Origin: Mesobacillus jeotgali
GTDB taxonomy: Bacteria; Bacillota; Bacilli; Bacillales; Cytobacillaceae
Reading direction: 5' to 3'
DNA: 64,000 nucleotides
NCBI RefSeq assembly: GCF_900166585.1
Contig: NZ_FVZC01000008.1
Coordinates: 434,001 to 498,000 of the forward strand
Shown here: one piece after another, positions 35,923-38,382 of the stretch
How the letters are laid out: every line of letters begins with the position of its first letter
Numbering within the stretch: the stretch's first letter is position 1
Position numbers and translations under genes: made by a program
Notes under the pieces: model-generated
Database searches by the model: none
Told to the model about the DNA's origin: nothing
What the model saw: the letters and a program-made list of their open reading frames with translations, nothing else

Positions 35923-37134
35923 ATGAGAATCAATCATAATATTGCAGCTCTTAACACTTACCGTCAATTAAACAGTGCTACAAATGCACAATCTAAATCT
36001 ATGGAAAAGTTATCTTCTGGTCTACGTATCAACCGTGCGGGAGACGACGCAGCAGGTCTTGCTATTTCTGAAAAAATGCGTGCACAAGTTCGTGGATTAG
36101 ATCAAGCTGGACGTAACGCTCAAGATTCTATCTCAATGATTCAAACAGCTGAAGGTGCTTTAAACGAAACTCATGATATCCTTCAACGTATGCGTGAACT
36201 TGCAGTTCAAGCTGGTAACGATACAAATACTTCGGATGACCGCGGTGAAATCCAAAAGGAAATTAATCAATTAACATCTGAAATCAACCGAATTGGTAAT
36301 ACTACTGAATTCAATACTCAGAAGTTATTAAATGCAAGTGCAGGGACAGTAACACCTGCAACACCGTCAGCTGCCGTAGCTGCTACTGCTACGGCTTCCC
36401 AAACTGCGGGAACTAGTGGAAATGTTACATTTACTGATGCGACAACTTTCACTGGTACTACTGGTACTTGGACTCTAGCAACAACTGATGGAACTGCTTT
36501 TACTCTCGATAAAGGTGATGGTAATGGAGCACAAGCTATTACTTTTACTGGAGGTAAAAGTACAGTGGAAGGTTTAGAACTGGTTTTACCTACAACTCCA
36601 GCGGCTAACAATGCATGGAAAATAGAAGTAACAGCATCAGTTGCTGCAGGTGTAACTACTGAACCAGCAAAATCATCATTTTCAACACAAATCGGTGCAA
36701 ACGAAAGCCAAACTATGACACTTGATTTTACTGATATGCGTGCTGCGGCATTGGGGATTACTGGTACTGGGACAGGTTACACAGGTACTGCAACAGTGAC
36801 CGATGGAACTGATAACAGCGCAGTAGAAAATGCTTTAGATGTAAGTACTTCAGCTAATGCAGGAAATGCAGTAACTGCAATTCAATCCGCTATTGATAAG
36901 GTTTCTGCTGAACGCTCTAAATTAGGTGCAAATCAAAATCGTTTAGAACACACTATTAACAACTTAAATACTTCTTCAGAAAACCTTACTGCTGCTGAAT
37001 CACGTATTAGAGACGTAGATATGGCGAAAGAAATGATGAACCAAACAAAGAATTCTATTCTTTCTCAAGCAGCACAAGCAATGTTGGCTCAATCTAATCA
37101 AATGCCTCAGGGAGTTTTACAACTTTTGAGATAG
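35923..37134 (+). CDS. hag: Flagellin (exon 1 plus intron-encoded tail as read without splicing)
   Basis: 403 codons when read straight through. The N-terminal D0/D1 part ([37 protein letters not shown]) and the C-terminal helix ([37 protein letters not shown]) are typical. The centre, about 140-300, is a Thr/Ala-rich variable surface domain. Expression is from a SigD promoter under CsrA control. The gene is interrupted near its end by a group I intron: codons after 37107 belong to the intron in my model, and the 3' exon at 37463-37507 encodes [14 protein letters not shown]. Both the unspliced and the spliced message end in QGVLQLLR. If splicing occurs as modelled the gene product is about six residues longer. 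Confidence 0.93.
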
Positions 37135-37462
37135 TTGTTTGGAAGGGCGTCTAGTTTGGTAACGAGCTAGAGTATAACTGGGTGAATTGCTGGAACTTCC
37201 TAAAGCTTCATCAACCACAACGTAACTGGAAACGGTTAGCGTGAGGGTCTGAGAATGATGAGGATGTTACAATGGACAATCAGCAGCCAAGCTCCTGTGA
37301 GGAAACTCTGGAGAAGGTTCAACGACTAGGGAACACGGTCTAAGGCATACGCTAAGACTATGAATCTCGTAGGGCAGCCAATGCTGTTCGAAGTGCCCAG
37401 CCCCTTGAAAGATAAGGGTGAAGATATAGTCTATTCTGTCACTGAAAGGTACAGTCGCAAAG
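37108..37462 (+). ncRNA. Group I intron (IA-like) in the flagellin gene
   Basis: The core helices can be drawn by eye. P1: exon AUGCCU (37102-37107) with IGS GGGCGU (37145-37150), ending in the required U-G pair. P2: 37151-37158 with 37163-37170, GUAA loop. P3: ACTGGGT (37177) with ACACGGT (37333). P4: TTGCTG (37187) with CAGCAG (37281). P6: CTCC/GGAG, capped by a GAG-GAAA-CTC P6a. P7: GACTA (37324) with TAGTC (37427) in AAGATATAGTC. P9: 37436-37454 with GAAA loop. The last base, G at 37462, fits a UU/AA P9.0; G at 37468 is an alternative end. It contains no endonuclease gene of its own. About 355 bases. Confidence 0.87.
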
Positions 37463-37507
37463 CAAGCGAACCAACAACCACAAGGAGTTCTTCAACTTCT
37501 TCGTTAA
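37463..37507 (+). other. hag: 3' exon of hag
   Basis: CAA GCG AAC CAA CAA CCA CAA then GGA GTT CTT CAA CTT CTT CGT TAA. This is the canonical flagellin C-terminus [14 protein letters not shown], in phase with exon 1 for either proposed 3' splice site. A strong terminator begins ten bases after the stop, as expected for the true end of hag. Confidence 0.85.
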
Positions 37508-37516
37508 TTTTAATAG

Positions 37517-37550
37517 AGGATGGGCGTTTTATAAACGTCCATCCTTTCTT
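37517..37550 (+). terminator. Terminator of hag
   Basis: AGGATGGGCGTTT pairs with AAACGTCCATCCT, then TTTCTT. The same hairpin holds the last codons of the antisense endonuclease relic. Confidence 0.85.
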
Positions 37551-38382
37551 AATTCTCGGATTTTATAGACGATTGACCAGTATGAACGATTAAGTGCATT
37601 TGCAATTGTCTGATCAGTGTAATTATTCTTTTTTAATTCAATGATTTTATTAACATCTTCTTCAGTGTAGTTTCTCCACCTCTCCGAATCGGAAGATAGA
37701 ATTTGAAAGCCAGGATATAGTTCCTGCAATTTTACTTTTTCAAGTTCAAATCTCATTTTCCAGTCTTTTTTGTAGTCCATTGTACATCCTTCTGCAGACT
37801 TTTCAATTAACTCTAAAAATTTAATAGTGTCACTAACCTTTGTTAGCTTTTAAAAGTGGCCGAATCCATCTTTTCTTTTACTAGGTTTAAAATTAATACC
37901 AAATGTTTGACTGATATGTTTCTGAAGATGCAGTAAATCGTCTTGTGGGAAGTTTTGAAGGTATAAGTAAATGTGAGGGGTGAGGTATATTTGTTTATTT
38001 AAGACATTGACCCTTTTTGATATGCATAGAGATCCATCTTCTAAATAAAGAACAGCTAGAAAAACAGGCATTGTACATAAAGGTAAGAGTTCATATGGTA
38101 ACTGCTTGTTACCTTCTTTGTTGTAAAAGTGTGAATAAAATTAGTGAATAAACTGTTAGATTTAGAAACTAAGTATGTTTTTGAAGACCGTAAATAAAAC
38201 AAGTTGGGAATCATCCTAGCTTTCCATTCCCGATAACCGAGTTGGTTTAAACTAAAGTGTTCACGATAGCTATTATTCTTTCTTCGGCTTCCTGGATATA
38301 TTTCGCCATCTGCCATGATACTTGTTATCAATATATTTATTTGTTCCATTGATAGACTTTCAAAGAGATCCTTCATGCTCAT
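37529..38382 (-). pseudogene. Broken LAGLIDADG homing endonuclease, antisense to hag
   Basis: One gene in three pieces. Piece 1 (38382 leftwards) has motif one in ILITSIMADGEIYPGSRRKN and ends after about 80 matching residues. A -1 frameshift near 38125 leads into piece 2: FYNKEGNKQLPYELLPL, motif two in FLAVLYLEDGSLC, and LTPHIYLYLQNFPQDDLL. A TAA at 37850, where Leu TTA is expected, stops it. The frame then stays open to 37529 with a Myb-like helix-turn-helix (YTEEDVNKIIELKKNN). The layout is a two-motif LAGLIDADG enzyme with a C-terminal DNA-binding domain. It keeps a good AGGAGG site. Probably the former mobility partner of the adjacent intron. Confidence 0.82.

Follow-up and report, generated by a model that had tools for sequence, protein, structure and literature searches.

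A group I intron close to the 3′ end of the Mesobacillus jeotgali flagellin gene hag, with a predicted spare C-terminus in its first codons

Flagellin introns of thermophilic bacilli are already in print, according to PMC3984707. They probably belong to the same family as the intron described here in the flagellin gene hag of Mesobacillus jeotgali, which is likewise a group I intron in a Bacillales flagellin gene. The group II introns C.te.I1 of C. tetani and B.a.I2 of B. anthracis undergo alternative splicing that gives several C-termini (PMC4424553). In both systems one gene would yield proteins with different C-termini. C.te.I1 and B.a.I2 are group II introns that use alternative 3′ sites, whereas in hag a group I intron would be left unspliced and the second ending lies inside it. 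Proteins carrying tmRNA tags or RqcH alanine tails are degraded by ClpXP (reviewed in PMC8012679). Introns at other flagellin sites encode tails that have -LAA or -AA ends in common with ssrA/tmRNA tags and RqcH tails, and the tails YALAA and YDLAAA resemble host tags. ssrA tags and RqcH tails are added in ribosome rescue, whereas the intron tails are encoded in the gene's own intron and are putative degrons. Collaborative homing is a further related system, in which a free-standing endonuclease gene adjoins an ORF-less intron. Searches of an open-access library, judged by titles, abstracts and selected passages, gave no report of intron-encoded tags or duplicated endings. Flagellin group I introns are known, and the variant with an in-intron ending or tail appears, as far as seen, to be new.

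The window analysed here is a 64,000-nt stretch of M. jeotgali DNA. Its sole gathering-level Rfam match is to the group I intron family RF00028, over the full model at 37115–37454 (79.5 bits, gathering score 50, E 1.5e-18). The initial annotation had proposed a group I intron in the closing codons of hag, to be given up if no Rfam group I match was found; that search was run, the match was found and the proposal stands. Core covariation was assessed for 52 named pairs in 26 diverse sequences. P7 and the other helices drawn earlier are present in the window, 98.2% of cells are paired across the 26 sequences, and 26 of the 52 core pairs changed on both sides, with 0 of 500 shuffles reaching values as high on all five measures. 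P4 and P7 are invariant in the 26 sequences, so covariation is uninformative for these two helices. Extra hairpins between P7 and P3′ are expected of subgroup IA, to which the intron was first assigned; one hairpin there (helix 8) is backed by covariation, and the IA label is tentative. The guide GGGCGT is invariant in 26/26 aligned sequences, of which GGGCG itself was demanded by the search pattern; the last intron base is G37462, where the pattern demanded AAG. The Rfam match, the helices and the covariation together describe a group I core from P3 to P9 that includes P7, and the assignment is well supported by this comparative evidence. A second C-terminus and a terminator-like hairpin follow the intron, also as first described (Table 1); the terminator consensus scan found 3 candidates against 1.5 expected, one of them this hairpin. 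Among phage records, 174 match parts of the intron core (70 at 80–90% and 104 at 60–80% identity), none covers 80% of the query, and none comes near the whole region. Plasmid records gave four partial matches, one of which is flagellin exon sequence only.

Table 1. Features of the hag locus, in window positions
Feature	Position	Strand	Evidence
hag exon 1, codons 1–389, ends ATG TTG GCT	35923–37089	+	ORF; Flagellin_N/Flagellin_C; 20 intronless genes; GCT in 102/102 carriers among the matches listed
Group I intron, 373 nt (predicted ends)	37090–37462	+	RF00028; exon continuity; homology with intron 1; covariation
In-intron spare C-terminus, 14 codons + TAG, in the P1 region	37090–37134	+	Codon conservation; pN/pS
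Internal guide region GGGCGTC; GGC pairs with exon GCU (by-eye reading)	37145–37151	+	Position; alignment
Ribozyme core P2–P9	37151–37454	+	RF00028; covariation
P2	37151–37170	+	
P7	37324–37329 / 37426–37431	+	
P8	37401–37418	+	
P9	37436–37454	+	
3′ splice-site hairpin, cut within the loop, TCGC AAAG/CAA GCGA	37455–37469	+	Pair variation; tree
Exon 2, native C-terminus (14 residues) + TAA	37463–37507	+	Same ending in 20/20 intronless genes; pN/pS 0.14
Terminator-like hairpin, common to both message forms	37515–37547	+	Consensus scan alone
Broken LAGLIDADG-type endonuclease gene, three ORF pieces	37529–38382	-	Pfam below cut-off; 286-aa relative

The first 45 nt of the intron continue the hag reading frame in the unspliced message as an ending with a stop, and apart from this ending the intron contains no ORF. 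The ORF at 35923–37134, whose stop lies inside the intron, encodes a complete 403-aa flagellin with Flagellin_N and Flagellin_C. Because this unspliced ORF is complete, gene callers would report a normal flagellin and overlook the intron. The in-intron ending differs from the native one by A to S and Q to M (QSNQMP vs QANQQP) and by changes in other codons, and the spliced and unspliced products have 403 residues each with two residues different. Our main reading, with a probability of roughly 0.78, is that the intron at 37090–37462 lies between A389 and Q390, that splicing yields the native ending and that the unspliced message yields full-length flagellin with the spare ending. Self-splicing would proceed by two transesterifications started by guanosine and would restore the native C-terminus. 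Without splicing, ribosomes would continue into the P1 region, and the full-length flagellin that they complete would carry the in-intron ending. This ending may act as a fail-safe when splicing is slow or blocked by translation, and its recoding may keep the two copies from recombining.

Among the matches listed, 100 of 102 distinct carriers have exactly 14 in-frame codons, followed by a stop, at the start of the intron. The only two listed copies without the spare ending are L067, which stops immediately, and L070, which reads QFEQIAA. pN/pS is 0.18 for the in-intron ending (97 rows) and 0.10 for its last eight codons, 0.14 for exon 2 and 0.21 for the 20 exon 1 codons just before the ending. 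In-frame reading of four control stretches in the intron core gave 0.79, 0.89, 0.93 and 0.94, each from 8–20 sequences; at two other offsets sequences were too scarce. Judged by these ratios, purifying selection is acting on both endings across relatives. The last residue is the same in both endings in 93 of 97 rows (R/R 84, Q/Q 9; the other rows K/R 3, Q/R 1), and on the tree, where 4 supported pairs bear on it, this agreement does not reach significance. The two endings give no support for gene conversion, with a likeness of 0.724 within and 0.713 between genes in 98 genes. This near-equality indicates that the endings are kept by selection and not by mutual copying. Whole-block spread by homing could account for part of their conservation. 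Selection on both endings as protein implies that spliced and unspliced messages alike are read in the family, and we infer that both Hag isoforms are made in M. jeotgali.

The intron might instead be a relic in M. jeotgali that no longer splices, so that only the complete unspliced flagellin is made, which we consider unlikely. The complete unspliced ORF and the broken adjoining endonuclease gene suit a relic. The full-model Rfam match with all core helices, the exon 2 pN/pS of 0.14 and the retained 3′ hairpin and T before the cut speak against one, as family-wide observations that are no proof for this genome.

The 5′ splice site is probably 37089/37090, by comparison with related genes, and lies 18 nt upstream of the 37107/37108 boundary first proposed. 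The 3′ splice site at 37462/37463 (AAAG/CAAGCG) was placed by homology with an upstream intron in several relatives, intron 1, and agrees with the site given earlier. Intron 1 lies between GAT (of DVD) and ATGGCG (of MAKEMM) and ends CGCACG/ATGGCG with native exon continuity; DVDMAKEMM is present in 20/20 intronless genes. Joining 37089 to 37463 restores the native ending found in 20/20 intronless relatives, which are the best intronless matches and not a random draw. With the 3′ site fixed, exon continuity therefore places the 5′ site after GCT. The carrier set comprises at least 102 distinct carriers in 124 copies; 35 places were rejected, 14 without a P3 anchor (8 of them ≤260 nt from the locus start) and 21 without the 3′ motif. 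The base before the 5′ cut was left free and is T in 102/102 distinct carriers among the matches listed, and in 14/20 intronless genes as counted from the listing. A U thus stands before the cut as in group I introns, and its U-G pairing with the guide GGC is a by-eye reading. The pairing of exon and guide at this site is three pairs only (GCU/GGC), which counts against it. Sites near AATGT and in a CAACTTT stretch, the latter suggested by the Rfam alignment, were dropped, as neither restores the native protein.

An intron at 37108–37462, with P1 formed by AUGCCU/GGGCGU and a spliced protein six residues longer, is quite unlikely. Its P1 has six pairs in the window with a U-G at the cut, and among the matches listed ATGCCT occurs in 54/102 carriers and T at the cut in 85/102. 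The T is missing after CCT in the other 17 of these 102 carriers, the six-residue insertion is absent from 20/20 native genes, and the L070 intron lacks that sequence altogether; the boundary first proposed is not upheld. An assembly artefact or recent gene-end duplication, suggested by a 14-codon near-repeat less than 400 nt apart, is hardly credible given the same layout in 102 distinct copies among the matches listed (27 named genera and others) and a likeness of the two copies that is about the same within a gene as between genes.

The P1 extension was compared between own and swapped partner strands in 100 rows, with L067 and L070 left out. The own partner gave a mean of -5.46 against -4.98 for swapped partners (sd 0.11; 0 of 200 shuffles). 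A wider calculation that includes L067 gives -5.65 vs -5.03, a figure inflated by the long 3′ strand of L067. By class in that wider calculation, the gain is clear in QSQQ (10 rows; -7.34 vs -4.50) and QANS (6 rows; -6.37 vs -4.66), and the own partner is also better in QAQQ (2), QANQ (2), QSQT (1) and QFEQ (1). The largest class, QSNQ (77 of the 102 listed), is hardly better with its own partner (-5.10 vs -4.98), and QSNS (2 rows) is worse (-2.95 vs -4.60).

The 3′ motif used in the search fixed two of the four pairs in the hairpin that spans the 3′ splice site. Among the 102 listed carriers, the inner pair, which was left free, is C-G in 54, G-C in 46 and G-U in 2, and the outermost pair is U-A in 65 and unpaired C/A in 37. 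Among the rejected rows, the stem is incomplete in L141 (GGC facing GCA) and L084 (a broken pair). A core tree built with the hairpin columns left out shows 14 changes of the intron base, matched by the exon base in 6/6 supported independent pairs (p 0.03). Intron 1 has a similar hairpin across its 3′ site, with matched changes on both sides in few copies.

A match spanning the intron and second ending was found in at least 41 of 201 related genomes, M. jeotgali's own included. Named carriers among the matches listed fall in 27 genera of five NCBI families (Bacillaceae, Caryophanaceae, Fictibacillaceae, Guptibacillaceae and Paenibacillaceae). The three reverse-strand ORF pieces downstream of hag (37529–37780, 37850–38071 and 38056–38382) all match one 286-aa ORF beside the carrier gene of L014, at 71%, 63% and 72% identity. 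Two of them match LAGLIDADG_2 (Pfam) at 23.7 and 15.5 bits, below the cut-off of 25. Downstream of the flagellin gene, on the opposite strand, a relative of the 286-aa ORF accompanies 32 of 88 carriers among the matches listed (those whose flank is ≥1000 nt long), as against 0 of 20 intronless genes, a difference with a chance of 0.0004 if rows were independent, which they are not. Weaker matches to this ORF lie beside site-2b introns (described below) in L295, L299, L300 and L304. In relatives, an ORF-less intron with a LAGLIDADG-type gene beside it resembles a homing intron and the collaborative arrangement, but the gene is broken in the M. jeotgali window, and homing here is putative. The endonuclease might cut intronless hag at the conserved QANQQP codons and so spread the intron with the adjoining gene, and recoding to QSNQMP might keep its target from being rebuilt. 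A Bacillales-type flagellin intron with an endonuclease gene also occurs in L122, titled Pseudomonas sp. ISL-84, an assembly that is probably mislabelled or contaminated.

Introns at two other flagellin sites outside the window, site 1 (intron 1) and site 2b (a few bases upstream of the hag position, site 2), carry short in-frame tails. A site-1 scan anchored on the 3′ junction gave 43/43 distinct copies ending in -AA, with 6 further places left out (locus edge, or DVD anchor missing). A wider scan with the tail unconstrained gave 65 of 68 distinct copies ending in -AA and 3 in -VA, and the other two reading frames gave 0 -AA endings. These tails are YALAA (43), YAEAA (8), YDLAAA (3), YDLAA, YALVA, YTEAA and YVLAA (2 each), and YAFAA, YDSAA, YAKAA, YAIAA, YASAA and YASVA (1 each). 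The nine introns at site 2b have 9/9 distinct tails ending in -AA (among them LEEIAA and LEGLAA); in other frames no -AA was found and one ends in a single A. In a phylum-wide sample, RF00028 matches were found in 36 of 398 genomes. Of 27 new loci (L290–L316), the 17 above the family cut-off were read: 14 are flagellin introns, among them the nine at site 2b; 13 of the 14 end in -AA, and the remaining one, L290, has a C-terminal copy. Copies at sites 1 and 2b are homologous, so tail counts are not independent events. Several relatives, including L098, L029 and L032, have flagellin genes with a pair of homologous introns, one at site 1 and one at site 2, separated by about 100 nt, and L098 has two such genes in tandem.

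The tails at both sites thus mostly have the nonpolar -LAA/-AA C-terminus of ssrA-like tags. tmRNA tags were read in 28/28 genomes searched, 18 by ARAGORN and 10 by translating the Rfam match. In the three YDLAAA genomes (L059, L103, L165) the tags end LAAA, as they also do in five genomes with other tails (L060, L070, L076, L087, L144). Five Planococcaceae (L091, L099, L101, L115, L158) with YAEAA, YTEAA or YAKAA have tags ending LAFAA or LAYAA, so the intron tail there is no faithful copy of the tag. The tag-end DNA GCTTTAGCTGCNTAA of L189 and L190 matches, letter for letter, the opening bases of intron 1 in many copies (L013, L062 and others).

Taken as degrons, which their ends suggest, the -AA tails would complement the spare ending, and unspliced products would be handled in two ways, at site 2 by a spare ending, and at sites 1 and 2b by a short -AA tail that resembles a degron. 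More broadly, bacterial group I introns may have evolved in-frame "fate tags", either a replacement C-terminus (site 2) or an ssrA-like ClpXP degron (sites 1 and 2b, perhaps some nrdJ introns), a proposal on which we are evenly divided. If true, a ribozyme could persist in a highly translated gene despite slow splicing, and splicing could act as a switch that sets which isoform is made, or whether any protein is made at all. Provision for unspliced products would then explain the tolerance of such introns.

The -AA tails may alternatively be by-products of the P1 hairpin with no degron role, an explanation that is possible but doubtful. The Ala codons lie within or beside the P1 stem, all copies are homologous and their counts not independent, and many other group I introns stop immediately with no tail. 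YAEAA (8), YTEAA (2) and YAKAA (1) also lack the hydrophobic residue that precedes -AA in host tmRNA tags. Against a by-product, the final Ala codon varies freely at its third position, as does the stop codon, among the 77 copies at sites 1 and 2b, and unrelated nrdJ tails likewise end in -AA or -VA. A codon insertion also keeps the frame and -LAA in the three genomes with YDLAAA and LAAA tags, a point weakened by the five other genomes that have LAAA tags without the insertion.

Among the best 30 loci in relatives, 21 are flagellin site 1, 2 are site 2 and 7 are elsewhere; two of these seven end in -AA (L207, L217). The L217 intron lies in an apparent phage tail gene, and its in-frame reading ends KLAA (stop). 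Gene names at non-flagellin loci, this one included, were assigned by eye from residues. Sixty further places were chosen as outside the flagellin loci already read, and 7 of them proved to be flagellin site 1, with YALAA in L230, L235, L237, L238 and L289, YASVA in L231 and YALVA in L265. Among the other 53, 17 tails end in small nonpolar residues. Seven are at the nrdJ APTG site (NAA, SAA, AAA, NVA twice, NIA, NVV), where the search pattern gave 0 matches and tails were read from sequence listings. Six are at the nrdJ RRGK site (KEA, KVA, KSA twice, KAA twice), and four are elsewhere (TVA twice, NVA, LAV). Eighteen of the 53 stop at once or nearly so (GGSR 9, APK 4, RRGK 3, MIMLAD 1, LYQR 1, each followed by a stop). 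The rest comprise 2 tails of another kind (L252, L278), 7 intron endonuclease-like ORFs, 4 tails that are not readable (L232, L242, L251, L267) and 5 places with no ORF by rule. Small nonpolar ends are thus frequent among tails and not universal in group I introns. The M. jeotgali genome has a second group I intron near 2009417–2009746 (L001), in what reads by eye as a B12-dependent ribonucleotide reductase gene. This intron contains a 165-aa HNH-like ORF, and exon 1 stops right after the likely splice site (MIMLAD, then stop).
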